A DNA stretch of 64,000 nt, taken from positions 1 through 64,000 of the forward strand of contig JANQMX010000039.1 in assembly GCA_028279885.1 (NCBI GenBank), written 5' to 3'. Within the stretch, counting starts at the first letter, position 1; every line of letters starts with the position of its first letter. The position numbers and the translations under genes were made by a program. Below the pieces are notes generated by a model. It saw only the letters and a list, made by a program, of their open reading frames with translations, was not told the DNA's origin and made no database searches. This DNA comes from Rhodovibrionaceae bacterium. GTDB lineage: Bacteria > Pseudomonadota > Alphaproteobacteria > Kiloniellales > DSM-21159. Positions 35,416 to 46,628 of this stretch are shown here, piece by piece.

Positions 35416-37701
35416 TCAGTTCGTCAGACGCAGGTAGAGCAGTGGCAGCTTTTCAGGCAGCGAATCGAGGCGATCGATCTGCACCACGCTGCGGCGCCCG
35501 AAGATACGGGTCAGATAGCTGTCGCCGCCTGAATCCAAGCCGACGCAAAAGACGTCGACGCCCTTCTGCGACAGGGACTGCACCGCCTTGCGCGCATCCT
35601 CCACCAGATATTTGCGGTCGCTCACGTCCACGTCCGAGGGCTCGCCATCGGTCACCACCAGCAGCAGCTTGCGGTGCGTCAACTGGCGTTCCAGGTCAGC
35701 AGCCGCATGGCGCATGGCCGCGCCGATGCGCGTCGACAGGCCGCTTTCCAGGCCGGCCAACCGGGCCTTCGACAGGGCGTCGTAAGGCACGGAAAAATCT
35801 TTGACCCGGTAGTAATGCACGGCTTCGCGACGGTCCGAGCAGAAGGCGGCCAGCGCGAAGGGATCGCCGATGCCGGACATGGCGTGCGCCAAGAGCGCAG
35901 TGGCTTGGCGCTCCAGATCGAGCACCGAGAGGTGTGATCCAAGCACCGTGTCTCGGGTCGATTCGGAGATGTCGAGCAGCACGAGGATGGAGAGGTTGCG
36001 TTCGCGCCGTTCCCAGCGGCCATAGACCCGAGGATCCGGCGTCTCCCCGGCGCGGCAGCTGATCGCCGCCTCGATGGTGGCGTCGATGTCGAGATACTCT
36101 CCCTCCATCTGTCGCTTGTGCCGTTGATGACGGCCGACTCGCGCCGCGTTGATCAGGTTGGAGATGCGATTGACCACGTCGCTGCGCTCGGCGAGGAAAG
36201 TATCGATCCTGTCGGCTGAGCCGGGCGGCGGCAGATACTCGATGATCGTGGTCCACTCCGGCCGTTCGCGGCCAGTGACGTAGTCGTATTCCGGATAGCG
36301 CGCGACCGGGATGCCGTCGACCTCGATGCTGCGCGAGCGTGCCTGCGGCTGTTCCTCGTCGGGAACCTCCTCGACCTCCTCGCGTTCCCGGTCCGGCGGC
36401 GTCTCGTCCTCCTCGTCCTGCTGCTCGATGCGCACGGAATCGAACAGCTGCTCAGCCTCCAGGGTCTCCTGCGACAGATCCTCGTCGAAGTCCCAGAGCC
36501 CGAGGTTGTCGTCGCGGTAGGGCGGCTCCACCACATAGGTGCGCGCATTGAACTGAATGCGCATCTGCCCAAGGGTGTTGCCAAGCAGGCCGCCGAGCTC
36601 TCGGCTGAGCTGCGGGTCCTCCCAGTCCGCCTCGCGGGCATAGAACAGCTCTCGCCCGCGTTGGACGAAGCCGTCCACGTCGCTGAAGTCCGGGTCGATC
36701 AGGGCGCGAGACAGCCGGGCAAAGAGGCTCGGCGCGGTCAGCGCCCCCGTCGCCTGCGCGATATGGAACTGGAGCCACAGCCGCCGGAGGCCGGGGAACT
36801 GCCGTATGGCGAGCTGCTCGACCCGGGCGTCCTCGATCAAGGAGATCAGGGCAACCTGCAGCGGCTTAAGCTTCTTCAGCGGATAGCGTTCGCCGGAGAA
36901 GACCAGATGGGCGCCGACGTGGGCGACGGCGGCGCGGTAAAGGTCTTCCGCGTCTTGGCCGCGGAAACCGGTGTAGGAGGTTGGCAGACGAATGATGCCG
37001 CGGTCGAAGCTGGAGCGCCGCCGCGCCACCACCGGTGCATTCACCGGCGGCTCCCGCATGGGATTGTGCAGGTCCCAAAGTGCGGCGAGATAGATCTTCA
37101 GGCGCCTTTCGACATCGGCGAAAATGACCTCGCCCGCTTCCCGCTGCAGCCAACGCTCCGCCTCAGGATCGATGAATTCGAAGAAGCGCAAGCGCCGCTC
37201 CGGGTCGCCGCCGCTGGCGCGCACCCCGGCAAGGACCCAGGCCTCCAGGCGTGAGACGTTGAGGTGGGCCATGAGGTAGTCCATGCGCCCCAGAAGCGAG
37301 GCCATGGACTCCGGCGCGATGGCGGCAACCCGCTGCATCAAGCCGAGCCAGGCGTGGTAGAGTTGATCGTTCTGCAGACGCTCCGCCGCCCGCTCCGCCG
37401 CTGGCGGCAGCTTCTCCGCCGTCGCGAGGCCCGACTTGATCGCCAGGATGGAGACCGCGTCGGCCAGATCGATGGCGGCGATGGGACTGACCAGGCGGCC
37501 CACGGCGACGGAGTGGCGCACGTAGCGGCGGACCACGCTATAGCCGTAGCCGGCCTGCTCCAGCTTGCGCGAGGCGCGCAGCCAGCGCGCGATCTCCGTT
37601 TCGTCGAAGACGGCGCGGACCTCTTCGGTCAGGACCGAGGGTTCCGCCTCATCCGAGCCGCTGCCGATCTGCAGCAGCTGCTTGAGCTCCGTAACCGTCA
37701 T
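35416..37701 (-). CDS. VWA-domain protein, CbbO/NorD family
   Basis: C-terminal VWA with MIDAS DISES (LLDISESTRDTV); acidic central linker; next to a CbbQ/NorQ-like AAA+ gene. Confidence 0.85.
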   Translation of the reverse strand: MTVTELKQLLQIGSGSDEAEPSVLTEEVRAVFDETEIARWLRASRKLEQAGYGYSVVRRYVRHSVAVGRLVSPIAAIDLADAVSILAIKSGLATAEKLPPAAERAAERLQNDQLYHAWLGLMQRVAAIAPESMASLLGRMDYLMAHLNVSRLEAWVLAGVRASGGDPERRLRFFEFIDPEAERWLQREAGEVIFADVERRLKIYLAALWDLHNPMREPPVNAPVVARRRSSFDRGIIRLPTSYTGFRGQDAEDLYRAAVAHVGAHLVFSGERYPLKKLKPLQVALISLIEDARVEQLAIRQFPGLRRLWLQFHIAQATGALTAPSLFARLSRALIDPDFSDVDGFVQRGRELFYAREADWEDPQLSRELGGLLGNTLGQMRIQFNARTYVVEPPYRDDNLGLWDFDEDLSQETLEAEQLFDSVRIEQQDEEDETPPDREREEVEEVPDEEQPQARSRSIEVDGIPVARYPEYDYVTGRERPEWTTIIEYLPPPGSADRIDTFLAERSDVVNRISNLINAARVGRHQRHKRQMEGEYLDIDATIEAAISCRAGETPDPRVYGRWERRERNLSILVLLDISESTRDTVLGSHLSVLDLERQATALLAHAMSGIGDPFALAAFCSDRREAVHYYRVKDFSVPYDALSKARLAGLESGLSTRIGAAMRHAAADLERQLTHRKLLLVVTDGEPSDVDVSDRKYLVEDARKAVQSLSQKGVDVFCVGLDSGGDSYLTRIFGRRSVVQIDRLDSLPEKLPLLYLRLTN

Positions 37702-37715
37702 AGCCGGCGTCGTCC

Positions 37716-38555
37716 TTACGCACAGGCGGCGATCGACGAGCTGAGCGCGTCCCTGATGTCCGGGTCATCGGTGATCGGCAGCACCAGGGCGACTTCGCAG
37801 GCTTCGCCCAGCGGCACGCCGCGCGCGATGAGCTGCCCCGCGTGGATCAGCATTCTGGTGGAGGCGCCCTCGTCCAGCCCGTGCCCGCGCAGGTTCCGGG
37901 AGCGCTCGGCGATCTTGACCAGGGTCGAGGCCACGCCCCGCTCGACCCCCGACTCGTGGGAAACGATCTCGGCTTCCAGGGCCTGCTCCGGATAGCTGAA
38001 GGCGATGGCGCCGAAGCGCTGCTTGGTCGACTCCTTCAGGTCCTTGAGCACGCTCTGGTAACCGGGGTTGTAGGAAATGACCAAATGAAAGTCCGGATGG
38101 GCCCGCACCACCTCGCTCTTCTTCTCGAGCGGCAGCATGCGGCGGTCGTCCGTCAGCGAGTGAATGATAACCGTGGTGTCCTGCCGCGCCTCGACGATTT
38201 CATCGAGATAGCAGATGGCGCCATACCGGACCGCCTGAGTCAGCGGCCCGTCGTGCCAAACGGTGCCCTCCACATCGAGCAGGAACCGCCCGACCAGGTC
38301 GGAGGCCGTCATGTCTTCATGGCAAGACACGGTGATCAGCGGCTTGCCGAGCCGCCAGGCCATGTGTTCGATGAAGCGCGTCTTGCCGCAACCGGTCGGG
38401 CCTTTCAGCATCATCGGCATGCGGTTCTCATAGGCCGCCTCGAAGAGCGCGACCTCGTTGCCGAGCGGCTTGTAGTAGGGCTCCTCAAGCAGCCGGTAGT
38501 CGTCCAAGTTCGTCACGTTCCAACACTCGTTCACTGAGCGGCCCGGCATCTGCAC
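37716..38555 (-). CDS. MoxR-family AAA+ ATPase, CbbQ/NirQ/NorQ type
   Basis: [71 protein letters not shown]. Confidence 0.9.
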
Positions 38556-38649: not shown

Positions 38650-39687
38650 TCAACGATGGGCGGTCTTCTGGTTGGGGATGCCCTCGATCGGCGACTCCTC
38701 GGTGCCGACCGTGGTCCGGGTCATGGCTTCGACCATCTCCCGCGTGCCCTCGGGATCGTTCACCCACTTGCTGTAGAACTCGTAGGGGCAAGCAGCCACG
38801 CCGCGGTCACCGTCGCCGGACTTGATCGTGCCGGTGTAGCCGCGGTGCAGCAGCTTGAAGAGGTGATTCTGCGACTGCATGTTCTTGCGCGCATCGCGGA
38901 TGGCGGAGGTGGAGAGCTGGGCGTACTGGATGCCGTTCTCCTCTTCCGCGCACTGGCCCAAGGTGCGGCCGTCGAAGCCGACGATCGCCGAATAGCCGAA
39001 GTAGGAGTAGACACCGTCGAAGCCGGTGGCGTTGGCGACCGCGACATAGCTGTTGTTGGCCCAGGCCATGGCCTTGGCCATGGTGACCTGCTGCTCCTTC
39101 GAGGGGTACATGTAGCCCTGGCAGCGCACGATAAGCTCGGCGCCCTTCATGGCGCAGTCCCGCCAGATCTCCGGATAGTTGCCGTCGTCGCAAATGATCA
39201 GGCTGATCTTCAGGCCCTTGGGGCCTTCCGACACATAGGTGCAGTTGCCGGGATACCAGCCTTCGATCGGCACCCAGGGCATGATCTTGCGGTACTTCTG
39301 AACGATCTCACCCTTGTTGTTCATCAGGATGAGGGTGTTGTAGGGCGCCTTGTTGGGATGCTCCTCGTGGCGCTCGCCGGTCAGCGAGAAGACGCCCCAG
39401 ACGTTGATCTTGCGACAGGCCTCCGCGAAGATCTCGGTCTCCTCGCCCGGGCACTCCGAGGCGGTTTCGTACATCTCCTTCTCGTCGTACATGATCCCGT
39501 GGGTGCTGTACTCGGGGAAGATGACGAGGTCCATGCCGGGCAGGCCGACCTTCATGCCCTCCATCATGGTCGCGATGTTGCGCGCGTTTTCGAGCACCTG
39601 ATCCTTGGTGTGCAGCCGCGGCATCTTGTAGTTGACGACCGCGACGCCGACCGTGTCGTGACTGCTGGAAATATCTCCGTGGTACAT
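38650..39687 (-). CDS. amiE: Aliphatic amidase (nitrilase superfamily)
   Basis: [72 protein letters not shown]; characteristic AmiE sequence. Confidence 0.93.
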
Positions 39688-39738: not shown

Positions 39739-40434
39739 CTAAACAGCCATGTGCCGGTGAACGAGTTCGTCGCTTAGCTCGTCGACCGCGCCCTGCGCGG
39801 CGACGCTTCCGCGGTCGAGGATGACGAAGCGCTGCGAGGCACGCCGGGCGAAGGCGACGTTCTGCTCGACCAGCACGACGGTCATGCCGTGCTCCTGATT
39901 GAGCTGCACCAGCACCTCTTCGATCTGCTCGACGATGTTCGGCTGGATGCCCTCGGTCGGTTCGTCCAAGAGGATGACCTTCGGCTGGGTCAGCAACGCG
40001 CGGCCGATGGCCAGCTGCTGCTGCTGACCGCCGGAGAGGTTGCCGCCGGGCCGGTCGAGGAAGTCCTTGAGGATGGGGAAGAGCTCGAAGATCCAGGCGT
40101 CGAGCTCGCCGTTGCCATCCTCAGTCGCGAAGGTGCCCATGCGCAGGTTCTCCCGCACCGTGAAGCGGGGAAGGATGCCGCGGCCCTGCGGCACGTAGCC
40201 GATGCCGGCGCGGGCGCGCTCGTGAGTGCCCTTGTCGATCAGCTCCGTGCCGTCGAGCTTGATGCTGCCGGTGGTGCGATCCATCAAACCCATCACCGCC
40301 CGCATGCAGGTCGTCTTGCCGACGCCGTTGCGGCCGAGAATGCTGACGAACTCGCCGTCGCCGACCGACATGGAGACGTCCTGCAGCGCGCGGCTGTTGC
40401 CGTAGAAGGCGTCGACGTTGCTGAGATCAAGCAC
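39739..40434 (-). CDS. urtE: Urea/short-chain amide ABC transporter ATP-binding protein, UrtE type
   Basis: LGRNGVGKTT Walker A, LSGGQQQQLAIGRALLTQPKVILLDEPTEGIQPNIVEQI. Confidence 0.85.
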   Translation of the reverse strand: MLDLSNVDAFYGNSRALQDVSMSVGDGEFVSILGRNGVGKTTCMRAVMGLMDRTTGSIKLDGTELIDKGTHERARAGIGYVPQGRGILPRFTVRENLRMGTFATEDGNGELDAWIFELFPILKDFLDRPGGNLSGGQQQQLAIGRALLTQPKVILLDEPTEGIQPNIVEQIEEVLVQLNQEHGMTVVLVEQNVAFARRASQRFVILDRGSVAAQGAVDELSDELVHRHMAV

Positions 40435-41194
40435 CGCTGATGCCTCCCGAGCCGAGGTAGGCGTCCTTCACCGCGGCATTCTGCTCGATCTCGGTGACCG
40501 AGCCTTCTGCCAGCATCTTGCCCTGGTGCATGACCGAGATGACATCGCCGATCTCTTTGACGAAGCCCATGTCGTGCTCGACGACAATCAGCGTGTGGTT
40601 GCCCTTCAAGCGATTGAAGAGCTCTGCCGTCTTCTGCGTCTCGTGATGGGTCATACCTGCCGTCGGCTCGTCCATCAGGATGAGCTCGGGGTCCTGGGCG
40701 AGCAGTAAGGCGATCTCCAGCCACTGGGTCTGGCCGTGGCTGAGCTCGCCAGCGCTGCGGTCCATGGCATCCTGCAGGCCGACCAGCTCGGCCAGCTTCT
40801 CAAAGCTATCGTCTTCCGAGCGGTGTCCGAAGCGGACGGCGTTGGCGAGAACGCTGGTGCTCTTGCAGTAGGCAACCTCCAGGTTCTCGCGCACCGTCAG
40901 TTCCTTGAAGACGCTCGGCACCTGGAACTTGCGGCCGATTCCGGCCTGAGCGATTTGGTGCTCTTCCAGTTTGTTGAGGCTCTTGCCCTTGAAGAGAATG
41001 TTGCCCGCGGTGACCTTGATCTTGCCGCAGATGAGATCGAGCGCGGTGGTCTTGCCGGCACCGTTCGGGCCGATCAGGCAGCGCAGTTCGCCCTTGCCGA
41101 CGGTGAAGTTGAAGCCCTCGATGGCGTGGAAGCCGTTGAAGCTGACCAGGATGTCGCGCATGACCAGATGGTCGTCGTTCGGACGGGCGTTCAT
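40427..41194 (-). CDS. urtD: Urea/short-chain amide ABC transporter ATP-binding protein, UrtD type
   Basis: MNARPNDDHLVMRDILVSFNGFHAIEGFNF, LIGPNGAGKTTALDLICGK. Start trimmed to MNARPN (ORF track gives 41464). Confidence 0.85.
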   Translation of the reverse strand: MNARPNDDHLVMRDILVSFNGFHAIEGFNFTVGKGELRCLIGPNGAGKTTALDLICGKIKVTAGNILFKGKSLNKLEEHQIAQAGIGRKFQVPSVFKELTVRENLEVAYCKSTSVLANAVRFGHRSEDDSFEKLAELVGLQDAMDRSAGELSHGQTQWLEIALLLAQDPELILMDEPTAGMTHHETQKTAELFNRLKGNHTLIVVEHDMGFVKEIGDVISVMHQGKMLAEGSVTEIEQNAAVKDAYLGSGGISGA

Positions 41195-42309
41195 TCGGCA
41201 GCCCCCGTCTGACCGGCGGCCTGCGGTGAGCCGGACCGTTCGCTCTGCGGCTTCTCGCGCCTGAACAGGCGGTCGACCAGCATCTCGACCGCGCCGGCCA
41301 GCCCCTTGGGCAGCAGCAAGACCACGAGCACGAAGACGAAGCCCATGATCAGCATCCAGGTGTCGAGGAAGGCCTCGGACTCGGAGAGCGCACCCTGCAT
41401 GCCGGTGACGATGATGGCACCGAGCATCGCCCCCAGGAGACTCTGCCGCCCGCCGACCGCGCACCAGATCACTACCGAGAGGCTGAGCGAGACGCCGAGG
41501 AAGGTCGGCGAGGCGAACTCCATGACGATCGTGTAGAGCATGCCTGCCACACCGGCGATGCCGGCTGAGACAGAGAAGGCGAAGATCTTGAAGAAGGCTA
41601 CGTCATAGCCGAAATAGCGAACGCGATCCTCATGGTCGCGGATGGCCTGCATGATCAGGCCCGCCTTACTCTTGGTGACGGCGAGCGCGAAGAACAGGCA
41701 GACCGTCAAGGTCCCGGCGATCAGATAGTAAGACGAGCTGCCGTAGGCATCGAAGGTGAAGCCCATGATCTCAAGCTGGGCCAGATCGGTGATGCCGTTG
41801 AAGCCGCCGGTGAAGCGCTGCTGATCGATGATCAGCAGGTTGACCACGACCATGGTCGCCAGGGTGATGATGGCGACGTAGACGCCGGTGATGCGGCCAC
41901 GGAACATGAACCAGCCGAGCAGCATGGCGAAGAGCACCGGCACCGCGATGCCGGCGATCAGGGCGAAGCTCAGCGAGTGGAACGGCACCCAGAACCAGGG
42001 CAGCGTCTCCACGTTGTTCCAGACCATGAAGTCGGGCAGGCCTTCGGAGCCAGTGTGCACCGGCACGGTGCGCAGCTTCAGCGCCATGGCCATGCAATAG
42101 GAGCCGAGGCCGAAGCAGGTCGCCTGGCCGAGGTTGAGGATCCCCGTGTAGCCCCACGACAGGCTAAGCGCGATGGCCAGGATGCCGAACACCAGATAGC
42201 GGCCGTACTTGTTGAGGATGAAGGCGTCGTCGACGAAGGTCGGCACCAAGAGGATGGCCAGGCAGACCGCCCCGTAGATGCAGAGCTGGATGAGGGTACG
42301 CCGCGACAT
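41191..42309 (-). CDS. urtC: Urea/short-chain amide ABC transporter permease, UrtC type
   Basis: Branched-chain-type permease: LSWGYTGILNLGQATCFGLGSYCMAMALK. Confidence 0.85.
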   Translation of the reverse strand: MSRRTLIQLCIYGAVCLAILLVPTFVDDAFILNKYGRYLVFGILAIALSLSWGYTGILNLGQATCFGLGSYCMAMALKLRTVPVHTGSEGLPDFMVWNNVETLPWFWVPFHSLSFALIAGIAVPVLFAMLLGWFMFRGRITGVYVAIITLATMVVVNLLIIDQQRFTGGFNGITDLAQLEIMGFTFDAYGSSSYYLIAGTLTVCLFFALAVTKSKAGLIMQAIRDHEDRVRYFGYDVAFFKIFAFSVSAGIAGVAGMLYTIVMEFASPTFLGVSLSLSVVIWCAVGGRQSLLGAMLGAIIVTGMQGALSESEAFLDTWMLIMGFVFVLVVLLLPKGLAGAVEMLVDRLFRREKPQSERSGSPQAAGQTGAAE

Positions 42310-42356: not shown

Positions 42357-43226
42357 TCATGCGCGGACCTTCTTCGAGAACAGGCCCTGCGGCCGAAATC
42401 GGATGAGAATGACGATGGCCAGCAGCGTGACCGCCTTGGCCATGGTGTCGTTGCTGTAGAAGGCCAGGAAGCCGGTCAGCTGGCCGAGGATCGCCGAGCT
42501 GACGATGGTGCCGATCAGACTCTCGACGCCGCCCAGCACCACCACCATGAAGGCGTCGATGACATAAGTCGTGCCCATCTCCGGCGAGACGCTCTTGAGC
42601 GGCGAGACCAAGGCACCGGCCAGCCCCGCGAGACCGGCGCCGTAGGCGAAGGTCAGGCTGTAGATACGCCGGCTGTTGATGCCGAAGCAGCTGGCCATCT
42701 CCCGGTTCTGGGTGATCGCCCGCAGCTTCATGCCGATGTCCGTGCGGTACATCAGGTACCAGGTCAGCCCGAAGAGCGCCGCCGCCAGAACCAGGATGAA
42801 GACCCGGAACAGCGAGGTCTCGACCCCGAAGATCGGCACGCTGCCAGCCAGCAGGGACGGCATCTCGACATAGCGCAGCTCCCCGCCGGCGGTCAGCCGA
42901 ATCGCCTGCTGGGCGATCACGCCGATGCCCCAGGTCGCCAGTATGGTGTCGAGCGGTCGTTTGTAGAGGTGCCGGATGACCCCGCGCTCGACCAGCCAGC
43001 CGAGCAACGCCACCATCAGGAAAATGATCACCAGGCTTTCGAGCAGCCCGAGCCCGATGACAGTTTGCAGCATCCAGGCCGAGTAGGCACCCAGCATCAC
43101 GAACTCGCCGTGGGCGAGATTGATGACCCCGGTGGTGCCGTAGATGATGGCAAGGCCGAGCGCCACGAGAAGCAGGATCGAGGCGATGCTGAGCCCGGTA
43201 ATCAACTGCGGAAGAACAGCGTCCAT
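42357..43226 (-). CDS. urtB: Urea/short-chain amide ABC transporter permease, UrtB type
   Basis: GLAIIYGTTGVINLAHGEFVMLGAYSAWMLQ LivH/UrtB-like signature. Confidence 0.85.
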   Translation of the reverse strand: MDAVLPQLITGLSIASILLLVALGLAIIYGTTGVINLAHGEFVMLGAYSAWMLQTVIGLGLLESLVIIFLMVALLGWLVERGVIRHLYKRPLDTILATWGIGVIAQQAIRLTAGGELRYVEMPSLLAGSVPIFGVETSLFRVFILVLAAALFGLTWYLMYRTDIGMKLRAITQNREMASCFGINSRRIYSLTFAYGAGLAGLAGALVSPLKSVSPEMGTTYVIDAFMVVVLGGVESLIGTIVSSAILGQLTGFLAFYSNDTMAKAVTLLAIVILIRFRPQGLFSKKVRA

Positions 43227-43332: not shown

Positions 43333-44580
43333 TCAGACCTCGCTCAGGCCATTCTCCGTGCAGACCTGATTGGGGTAGGCCTTGTAGGGCACAGGCTCGA
43401 GCCACTCGTTCGATTGCTTCAGGATCTCGAACTGCCCGTCCGACTTGCAGACGCCGATCTTCGGCCAGAGGAAGGTGTGCAGCGTTGCCGGGTCGAGCCG
43501 CACCTGACCTTGCGGCGCCGTCAGCTCCACGCCTTTCACGGCCTCGCGAATGTTGTCCGGGGCGATGTCGCTCGGCGCGAGCTTCTCGACCGCCTGCTTG
43601 AACATGTAGACCTGGAAGTAGGAGGGCTCGGAGACGAAGTGGGTCACCTTGTCCTGACCCCAGCGGTCGCGATAGGCGCGCACGAAAGCCTCGTTCTCCG
43701 GCGACTCCCAAACCATGAAGTAGGGCGCCGAGGTGAAGTGGCCGGCGGCGGCATCGCCGCCCATGGCCGCCACCTCGTTCTCAGAGGTGGTGAGGCTGGC
43801 CATCGGCATGGTCTCCGGGTCGAGCCCGGCTGCGCGGTACTGGCGGTGCAGAGCCACCACCGAGTCGCCGACGACCGTCGAGAAGATCACATCCGGCTTC
43901 TCGTTGCGGAACTTGTTGATAACGGAAGAGAACTCGGAGTGCCCGAGCGGCACGTACTCCTCGTTGACGACCTCGCCACCGAGTTCAGCCAGGAGCTTCT
44001 TGCAGTAGTTGTTCTCCTCCTTCGGGTAGATGTAGTTGGACCCGATGAGGTACCAGCGCTTGCCGAACTTCTCGAACAGCCAGGGGACGAACTCGTCCTG
44101 CTGCTGGTTCGGCACGGCGCCGGTATAGATGACGTTCTTCGAGCACTCCCGCCCTTCGTAGAGCGTCGGGTACCAATAGAGGTTCTTGCGCTTCTCGAAG
44201 ACCGGCAGCACCGCCTTGCGGCTGGCCGAGGTGTAGGAGCCGAAGACGCTGACGCAGCGGTCGCCGAGCACCAGCTTGCGCGCCTTCTCGGCGAAGGTCG
44301 CCGGGTCGGACGCCGGGTCTTCGACCACGGGCACGATCTTCATGCCGTTGATGCCGCCGGCGTCGTTGATCTCTTCGATCGCCAGGAGGGTCGCCTTGTT
44401 GAGCGATTCCTCGATGATGCCGGTGGTGCCGGTCAGCGAGAACAGCACGCCGACCTTGATCTCGCCGTCGGCGGCGTAAGCCTGCGAATGATCCTTGATC
44501 CAGACGTGCGGGAAGCCGCTTGCGTAGAACGCGCCGGCGGCGATGGAGCCCTTGAGAAACGTGCGCCTCTTGATTGTCAT
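43333..44580 (-). CDS. urtA: Urea/short-chain amide ABC transporter substrate-binding protein, UrtA type
   Basis: Signal MTIKRRTFLKGSIAAGAFYASG; IKVGVLFSLTGTTGIIEESLNKATLLAIEEINDAGGING. RBS GGAGG upstream. Confidence 0.87.
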   Translation of the reverse strand: MTIKRRTFLKGSIAAGAFYASGFPHVWIKDHSQAYAADGEIKVGVLFSLTGTTGIIEESLNKATLLAIEEINDAGGINGMKIVPVVEDPASDPATFAEKARKLVLGDRCVSVFGSYTSASRKAVLPVFEKRKNLYWYPTLYEGRECSKNVIYTGAVPNQQQDEFVPWLFEKFGKRWYLIGSNYIYPKEENNYCKKLLAELGGEVVNEEYVPLGHSEFSSVINKFRNEKPDVIFSTVVGDSVVALHRQYRAAGLDPETMPMASLTTSENEVAAMGGDAAAGHFTSAPYFMVWESPENEAFVRAYRDRWGQDKVTHFVSEPSYFQVYMFKQAVEKLAPSDIAPDNIREAVKGVELTAPQGQVRLDPATLHTFLWPKIGVCKSDGQFEILKQSNEWLEPVPYKAYPNQVCTENGLSEV

Positions 44581-44724: not shown

Positions 44725-44808
44725 AAAAAGACCCACTGCCAGCGCGCCGAGCGCTGAAGAGTGGGTCGCGTCCTTGCCGATCAAATTTTGGGTGGCGCCG
44801 TTGCCACC
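44725..44808 (-). promoter_or_regulatory. ANTAR-type leader: two hexaloop hairpins followed by an overlapping terminator
   Basis: Minus strand P1 GGTGGC[AACGGC]GCCACC (44791-44808); P2 TCGGC[AAGGAC]GCGA (44766-44780); terminator GACCCACT...AGTGGGTC-TTTTT (44725-44767) overlapping the 3' side of P2. Both hexaloops have A1 and G4. Confidence 0.8.
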
Positions 44809-44818
44809 GGAATAAACG

Positions 44819-45481
44819 CTAACCAATAAGGTCTTGCGTGTCAACGATGGCCGAGGCGAGCGCTCCGATGCTGACCCGGCGATGCATCGCCTGCTTGCGC
44901 AGATGATTGTAAGCGTCCTCCTCGGACAGGCCCTTACCGCGCATCAGGATCAGCTTGGCCTGCTCGACGGTGCGCGTGGTGCGCAGGTTGTCATCCAGCT
45001 TCTCGATCCTCTGACGTAGCCGCCGCTCGTAGCGAAACAAACCGTAGGCGATCGACAGGCTGGTCAGCGCCGCTTGCGGCGCCAGAGGCAGATGCACGAC
45101 GCCGTGCGGCGCACAATTCTCCAAGAGGGAGAGGTCGAGGTTCTGCTGCGGCCGCACCACGAGGACCAGCGCCGAGGTCGGCTCTCCGGTGACCCAGGGA
45201 AGGCGCTGCGGCAGGCTGCTGCAGAGATCGCAGTAGAGGACATCGAAGCTCCCAGGCAGCGGCTCCGGTCCCGGGGCGATGTGCTGGACGGCCGCGCGCG
45301 TGCGCTGTAGCTCGCGCAGCAGGTCTTTTGCTGCCGTATCATCGGCGGTGACGACGCCGATGCTCAAGCGTTCCAGAGCGCGTGCGCGGCGCAGCGCATC
45401 CGTCTCCGTCTTGGATGCTACGCCGCGGTCCTGCGGCTTGCTCGGGAGTGTAAGCTTCCGACGGTCCAACGCGCTATCCAA
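44819..45481 (-). CDS. amiR: ANTAR-domain RNA-binding antiterminator, AmiR/NasR type
   Basis: C-terminal ANTAR-like VEQAKLILMRGKGLSEEDAYNHLRKQAMHRRVSIGALASAIVD preceded by a receiver-like domain; adjacent to amiC. Confidence 0.9.
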   Translation of the reverse strand: MDSALDRRKLTLPSKPQDRGVASKTETDALRRARALERLSIGVVTADDTAAKDLLRELQRTRAAVQHIAPGPEPLPGSFDVLYCDLCSSLPQRLPWVTGEPTSALVLVVRPQQNLDLSLLENCAPHGVVHLPLAPQAALTSLSIAYGLFRYERRLRQRIEKLDDNLRTTRTVEQAKLILMRGKGLSEEDAYNHLRKQAMHRRVSIGALASAIVDTQDLIG

Positions 45482-46628
45482 GGGCCGTGCAACGGCCGTA
45501 GCCGATCAGATAGGGATCCGCGCTGACGCGCGATGGCGACTCGTACTGGATTTCGAACTGTCCCCTGCGGTTGGCCTTGCCGATCCGCGTCCAGAGATCG
45601 GCGTGGCCGTACTGCGGGTTGATCGACACGCGGCCCTGCGGCGCATCGAACTCGGTATCGAGCACCATGTTGCGAAGCAGATCGGTGTCCATGGAGTTGG
45701 TTCGCCTGAGCGCCTTGGCGAAGATGTGCATCTGGAAGTAGGCCGCCTCGACACACATGTTGGTCAGCTCGTCTTCGCCATAGCGGCGGCGATAGAGGCG
45801 CTTGAATGCCTCGGAGAACTTGGTGTTCAGCCCGTCGAAGTAGGGCGCCGCCGTGATGTGTCCCTCGCCGACGTCGCAGCCCATGGCGCGTATTTCCGCC
45901 TCGGCCGTGGTCAGGCTGGCGATCGGCATGACCTTGGGATCGAGCCCGAAGTCGGCATAGGTCTGATAGAGGAAGACGGTGCCGTCGCCGACGACCGTGG
46001 AGAAGATGACGTCGGGCCGACGGTTCTCCACCTCCTTCATGATGGGAATGAACTCTTCCCGTTTGCCGCGCAGATTGACGTAGCGCTCACCCACCACTTC
46101 GCCCCCGCTCTCGCGCAGGAACTCCCGCATGATGCGGTTCGACTCGCGCGGATAGATGTAGTCGGAGCCGATGAAGAAGAAGCGCTTGCCGTAGTGCGCC
46201 ATGAGGAAACGGCACAGGGCCATGCTGTTCTGGTTTGGCGCAGCACCCGTGTAGATCACGTTGGGCGAGAACTCGAAGCCTTCGTAGAGGGTCGGATACC
46301 AGAGCAAGCCGTTGAGGCGCTCCACCACCGGCAGGGTCGCCTTGCGGCTGCTCGAGGTATAGCAGCCGAAGATCGTGGTGATGCCGTCGTCCACCATCAG
46401 CTTCCTGGCATAGCGTCCGAAGGCAGAAGGCTCCGAGGAAGGGTCGTAGAGAACCGGCTCGATCGGGCGCCCGTTAATGCCGCCGGCCTCGTTGATCTCA
46501 TCGATCGCCGTCATGGTGCCGCGGAGCTGCGTCTCTTCGATCACGGCCATGAAGCCGGAGCGGGAGAACAAGACACCGACGCGCCAAGGTTCGCTTGTTT
46601 TCTGATCCTTTGTCATGATCGCCACCAT
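45474..46628 (-). CDS. amiC: AmiC-like amide-sensing periplasmic-binding-fold regulator
   Basis: No signal peptide; VGVLFSRSGFMAVIEETQLRGTMTAIDEINEAGGINGRPIEPVLYDPSSEPSAFGRYARKLM; overlaps amiR. Confidence 0.88.
   Translation of the reverse strand: MVAIMTKDQKTSEPWRVGVLFSRSGFMAVIEETQLRGTMTAIDEINEAGGINGRPIEPVLYDPSSEPSAFGRYARKLMVDDGITTIFGCYTSSSRKATLPVVERLNGLLWYPTLYEGFEFSPNVIYTGAAPNQNSMALCRFLMAHYGKRFFFIGSDYIYPRESNRIMREFLRESGGEVVGERYVNLRGKREEFIPIMKEVENRRPDVIFSTVVGDGTVFLYQTYADFGLDPKVMPIASLTTAEAEIRAMGCDVGEGHITAAPYFDGLNTKFSEAFKRLYRRRYGEDELTNMCVEAAYFQMHIFAKALRRTNSMDTDLLRNMVLDTEFDAPQGRVSINPQYGHADLWTRIGKANRRGQFEIQYESPSRVSADPYLIGYGRCTALG

Follow-up and report, generated by a model that had tools for sequence, protein, structure and literature searches.

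How an operon that opens with genes for an amide sensor and an antiterminator controls the genes that follow them is the question raised by an amiC-amiR locus of a Rhodovibrionaceae bacterium, of which a stretch of 64,000 nucleotides (the window) was analysed. A first-pass annotation of this sequence had proposed an ANTAR antitermination leader directly downstream of amiR, through which AmiC-AmiR would control its own transporter and amidase genes. The antitermination mechanism of AmiR and EutV has been published (PMC3369931, PMC8934654), and ∼400 ANTAR leaders are known in firmicutes and proteobacteria (PMC8164766). Leaders with two hexaloops have been described, some of them preceding urea transporters and some belonging to multi-copy transcription units (PMC3369931). 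Our results indicate that amiR and the urtA-like gene are very probably separated by an internal attenuator, in which two ANTAR-responsive terminators follow each other.

The genes of the locus, all on the minus strand, are arranged as amiC-amiR-leader-urtABCDE-amidase-NorQ-NorD, and this layout is kept in the orthologues. amiC (45474-46628) encodes a cytosolic amide-sensing regulator of the Peripla_BP_5 family, whose best solved relative is Pseudomonas aeruginosa AmiC (1pea, E 7.6e-94). No signal peptide is visible on direct reading of the sequence, and the protein is 71-75% identical to its counterpart at the same position of close orthologous operons. The gene preceding the leader (44819-45481) was correctly named amiR, since its product carries an ANTAR domain (Pfam, 2.2e-16) and the AmiR N-terminal domain (AmiR_N, 7.1e-8); its nearest solved structures are P. 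aeruginosa AmiR (1qo0_D, E 5.5e-13), the putative antiterminator 1s8n and EutV. The locus thus encodes together a periplasmic-binding-protein-like cytosolic sensor and a pseudo-receiver/ANTAR protein. The genome encodes two ANTAR genes, of which one, amiR, adjoins the leader.

Downstream of the 238-bp gap, the urtA-like gene (43333-44580) encodes a substrate-binding protein with a Tat signal (Peripla_BP_5, 6.1e-141; PDB matches to 8tg1 and urea-binding proteins), which matches the UrtA family TIGR03407 below that family's cut-off. Matches above the respective cut-offs were obtained for the permeases UrtB (42357-43226, TIGR03409) and UrtC (41191-42309, TIGR03408) and for the ATPases UrtD (40427-41464, TIGR03411) and UrtE (39739-40434, TIGR03410), the true start of urtD probably lying downstream of the listed GTG. 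An aliphatic amidase follows (38650-39687), which reaches 707 bits against a cut-off of 427 for NF009802 and matches PDB 2plq with an E of 7.5e-196. Next come a CbbQ/NorQ-type AAA ATPase (37716-38555, AAA_5 and CbbQ_C) and a NorD-like protein with VWA domains (35416-37701), a conserved neighbour in orthologous operons; this NorQ-NorD pair (35416-38555) closes the amidase operon in all full-length orthologous operons seen. A promoter scan returned no convincing promoter.

The strings quoted in the first-pass annotation are all present on the minus strand, in the place given for them, just after the amiR stop. P1 of this element, hereafter element 1, is GGTGGC[AACGGC]GCCACC (44808-44791), a stem of 6 bp with A at position 1 and G at position 4 of its hexaloop. 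P2 (44780-44766) carries the loop AAGGAC (44775-44770), also with A1 and G4, and the intrinsic terminator predicted by folding consists of GACCCACT...AGTGGGTC (44767-44730) followed by TTTTT (44729-44725). The loop and the place of P2 were thus correctly described; its stem, proposed as UCGGC[AAGGAC]GCGA, only forms with a bulged G44778, leaving four pairs (C44776-G44769, G44777-C44768, C44779-G44767 and U44780-A44766). Alignment to the covariance model described below attributes this to two extra bases, GA, in the 3' arm when compared with a consensus GGC[6]GCC, and the insertion is matched by TC in the 3' arm of the terminator. With a predicted stability of about -1.1 kcal/mol, this P2 is the weakest found, nearly all other elements lying between -4 and -7 kcal/mol. 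Its overlap with the terminator is restricted to two bases, G44767 and A44766. Forcing P2 in folding displaces the bottom two pairs of terminator 1 and leaves six of its eight outer pairs formed, so that the mutual exclusivity claimed for the two structures applies to those bottom pairs and not to the other six. The sequence from the amiR stop onward (44821-44814) reads TARCGTTT in about seven of 12 relatives; the same motif also precedes an element located upstream of amiC at another locus (L076), where it is noncoding.

The gap was described as containing a single ANTAR unit, and that unit is real; a second complete one, which scores better, lies between terminator 1 and the start of the urtA-like gene (44691-44593). 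P1 of element 2 is GCGGC[GACGAC]GCCGT (44691-44674; 5 bp), with G at position 1 and G at position 4 of the loop, and the G1 is a change also found in orthologues. P2 is GGC[AATGAT]GCC (44657-44646; 3 bp, A1 and G4), with a loop identical to that of the second elements of three orthologues (L009, L011 and L073). Both elements therefore have two hairpins of at least 3 bp closed by hexaloops, P2 of element 1 doing so only with its one-base bulge. Terminator 2 (44650-44593, by folding) consists of ATGCCCCAA...TTGGGGCAT and then TTTTCTATTT, or AUGCCCCAA...UUGGGGCAU-UUUUCUAUUU as RNA. It ends just ahead of the GGAGG Shine-Dalgarno sequence (44590-44586) and the ATG (44580-44578) of the urtA-like gene, and, unlike in element 1, its 5' arm contains the entire 3' arm of P2. 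Judged from these sequences, element 2 is the canonical case, in which P2 and terminator are predicted to be fully mutually exclusive.

To place both elements in a wider context, we read the gaps downstream of AmiR orthologues (43-59% identical) taken from the order, the class and a genome collection, and built a covariance model, R1, from 16 orthologous leader units with the window left out. The search of the 5.6-Mb genome with this model, a check that had been suggested for the leader, ranks the two elements as the two best sites, element 2 coming first (44691-44644, 40.0 bits, E 8e-8) and element 1 second (44808-44763, 35.9 bits, genome-wide E 1.1e-6), while the third-best site reaches 22.4 bits. 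A weak match of model R1 inside urtA (43761-43740, 19.2 bits) was set aside after inspection, as were weak matches at L063-L065 and L069, which lie inside or overlap coding sequence. Even with filters off, the search gave no ANTAR element upstream of the window's own amiC. Rfam gave no match in the window at the gathering threshold and none that was relevant at a relaxed threshold. A terminator scan missed both terminators, presumably owing to its requirement for a single uninterrupted stem with a loop of 3-8 bases.

Covariation of the hairpins in orthologues, on the lack of which the proposal was to fall, was observed for P1: four of its six pairs are changed on both sides, its covariation score of 0.21 was reached by none of 500 shuffles, and pairing drops from 98% to 23-78% when the partner is slid by one to three columns. 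By contrast, P2 is GGC/GCC in all units but element 1 and L075b; since the stem does not vary, covariation is uninformative for it, and its conservation could partly reflect the 5' arm of the terminator. In the tabulated units, G4 is present in 23 of 23 P1 loops and 22 of 23 P2 loops. The rule that loops carry A1 and G4 holds for both loops of element 1 and is nevertheless too strict for the family, because position 1 is usually A but often G. Some second loops outside the orthologous gaps have no G4, such as AAAAAA in L080 and GAAAAG in L078 (5066-5109), the latter upstream of a permease. Across 22 units, the two sides of the bottom terminator pairs change together, positions 5-7 showing several pair types, and pairing amounts to 90%, compared with 67% after shuffling; as the stems were selected for pairing, this is supporting and not independent evidence. 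The order P1-linker-P2-terminator occurs in nearly all orthologous gaps, at the same place in operons of several families. Tandem units are found in about half of the close orthologues (L009, L010/L073, L011, L012/L075, L014/L074 and L017/L076), the rest having a single one, and a canonical first element is kept in most of the tandem pairs.

Within the order, matches of at least 40 bits to model R1 are found in exactly the nine of 61 genomes that have this AmiR. This co-occurrence is partly circular because the other eight order-level genomes belong to the training set of the model, and the cases independent of training therefore weigh more, namely the window, L060, L062, L068, the element upstream of amiC in L076 and the plasmid loci. 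L060 (46.0 bits) and L062 (30.6 bits) are blind matches from the class, located between divergent amiR genes (only 33-36% identity) and urtA. The full amiC-amiR-urtABCDE-amidase-NorQ-NorD operon is also present on plasmids of Rhizobium etli and Roseibium, where the amiR-urtA gap likewise contains elements. The control of the downstream transporter-amidase operon by an ANTAR leader is thus supported by the conserved position, the covariation of P1, the co-occurrence with AmiR and the blind matches between amiR and urtA.

Elements were also seen outside this gap. At L068 (5264-5219, minus strand), a 47.2-bit element with a terminator precedes a cytosine/purine permease, away from amiR; the same genome also has an amiR locus, and the element apparently adds a second member to an AmiR regulon. 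An element is also carried by two genes of Roseibium aggregatum, one for a cytosine permease and one for a hydrolase, that are located directly upstream of amiC. Dual-hexaloop elements lie directly upstream of amiC in G435 (L076, 12778-12736, minus strand), Rhizobium etli, Agrobacterium and Roseateles (L079, 7527-7571; L080, 1552-1595; L081, 1467-1509), which suggests that AmiR autoregulates its own operon in these relatives. On an Agrobacterium plasmid (L080, 3546-5400), the genes after amiC-amiR are not urt genes and encode a hypothetical protein, a DUF6925 protein and a CobW-type GTPase; the gap after the pair gives a weak ANTAR match, and sensor and antiterminator may have been rewired to serve a different operon. 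Finally, a 31.6-bit match with good hexaloops and no clear terminator lies between two ammonium-transporter genes (L061, 1546-1501, minus strand) and is possibly a different ANTAR target.

The same genome (G000) contains, on contig C31 (L072, L077), a paralogous amiC-amiR-urtABCDE operon that ends in an amidase-signature enzyme. The leader of this operon has one P2-like G4 hexaloop before a terminator and no pair of hairpins like those of model R1, which finds nothing there. Since this leader is divergent and missed by the model, the two amiC-amiR systems may be insulated from each other.

That hairpins with hexaloops arose by chance in GC-rich sequence is hardly credible. The combination of P1, A1/G4 hexaloops, P2 and terminator occurs once in the real window, as element 1, and on average 0.1 times in 20 first-order Markov shuffles of it, but a looser loop rule (R1, G4) gives ∼0.55 such arrangements per shuffled window. 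A chance origin is refuted by the independent search with the covariance model, which places its two best genomic sites in one 238-bp gap that is conserved in orthologues. It is also very improbable that the elements are bound by the C31 ANTAR paralogue and not by the adjoining AmiR. The existence of a second amiC-amiR-urt operon with an amidase makes this conceivable; however, the paralogue shares only 25% identity with AmiR and has its own divergent leader in a separate operon, and the elements are nearly always found beside the AmiR used here. Alternatively, the hairpins might act without AmiR, as plain terminators combined with translation-coupled attenuation or as the anchor of another RNA-binding protein. 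The invariance of P2 and its overlap with the terminator arm, for which some conservation is expected without any protein, and the lack of a matching Rfam family here would fit this explanation, yet G4 is conserved in P1 loops, which are outside the terminator, P1 covaries, and the element tracks AmiR, one of two ANTAR proteins of the genome, across genomes. We consider action without AmiR improbable.

A less remote alternative, although still an unlikely one, concerns element 1 only, which would be the ordinary terminator of amiCR with a decaying ANTAR motif, element 2 alone being the regulated attenuator. The GA insertion that breaks the GGC/GCC stem, the weakest P2 of all and the two-base overlap with a terminator that is itself intact are in favour of decay. 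On the other hand, P1, both A1/G4 loops and the linker, in length and sequence (AAAATTTGAT), are kept, the element still scores 35.9 bits, and orthologues with tandem pairs mostly keep a canonical first element. Moreover, a strong unregulated terminator at this place would keep the operon permanently off in the absence of an internal promoter. Conversely, the tandem might be a functional design giving a steeper and less leaky response to amides, with element 1, whose P2 is nearly destroyed and whose P1 hexaloop is perfect, serving mainly as a loading site for AmiR or through a single hexaloop, a mode of action that has been proposed for EutV (PMC8934654); we put this forward tentatively.

In the reading that we prefer, two ANTAR-responsive terminators in series, what was seen at the locus is the sequence anatomy, the conservation, the covariation of P1, the co-occurrence with AmiR and the operon context; the amide as ligand, AmiR as binder and the release of termination are inferred from the biochemistry of AmiR and EutV. 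Transcripts would start upstream, probably before amiC, and run through amiC-amiR. In the absence of amide, they would end at the first (44767-44725) or the second terminator (44650-44593), so that the sensor and the antiterminator would be made and the transporter and amidase would not. As amiC-amiR precede the attenuator, the regulators would escape the attenuation that they impose. In the presence of amide, amide-bound AmiC would release AmiR, whose dimers would bind the P1 and P2 hexaloops at each site and hold or stabilise P2. P2 would then take the bottom pairs of the terminator and part its stem from the U-tract, so that polymerase would continue through urtABCDE, the amidase gene and the pair of NorQ/NorD-like genes. 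Folding predicts the terminator to be favoured over the P2-forced state by 6.0 and 9.9 kcal/mol for the two elements, in agreement with a default-off switch that needs a protein.

The regulator belongs to an already described ANTAR kind, and the known mechanism is unchanged. The locus extends AmiC-AmiR antitermination to a conserved operon, mainly of alphaproteobacteria, in which the regulators are followed by a doubled internal attenuator and an Urt-type amide transporter, and model R1 is a small and specific covariance model for such leaders. The only points for specialist follow-up are the tandem arrangement and the decayed P2, and the naturally occurring range of elements (tandem, single, autoregulatory and bulged) lends itself well to testing dual- against single-hexaloop models of ANTAR action. 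A literature search, outside whose scope were supplementary tables and most subscription journals, found no paper on the leader of this operon.

Several known systems resemble it in part. Plasmid-borne acetamide-utilisation clusters, with the orders amiC-amiR-ABC transporter-amiE and amiE-amiC-amiR-NorQ-NorD, contain the same gene families but differ in gene order and number of transporter subunits, and the accessible part of their description mentions no leader RNA (PMC13209695). The eut leaders of Enterococcus faecalis likewise have two hexaloops, A1/G4 and a P2 that overlaps the terminator (PMC3369931, PMC8934654), but EutV is activated by phosphorylation and acts on four separate leaders, compared with two in series here. 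In Paracoccus denitrificans, NasS-NasT works like AmiC-AmiR, and nasTS-nasABGHC also combines sensor and ANTAR genes, internal noncoding hairpins and then transporter and enzyme genes (PMC5424462, PMC3795266). There too, the regulators precede the attenuator (PMC5424462); the ligand is nitrate or nitrite, the two regulator genes are in another order, and the comparison is one of layout. The amiE leader of P. aeruginosa is similar in its sensor-antiterminator pair, substrate class and downstream amidase (PMC3369931; structure 1qo0), and in its dual A1/G4 hexaloops and intrinsic terminator (PMC3369931), the comparison being one of features. However, the P. aeruginosa operon, as cited in PMC3795266, is amiEBCRS and has its leader before amiE, whereas the present locus opens with amiC-amiR, contains a doubled attenuator inside the operon and encodes a UrtABCDE-type transporter.
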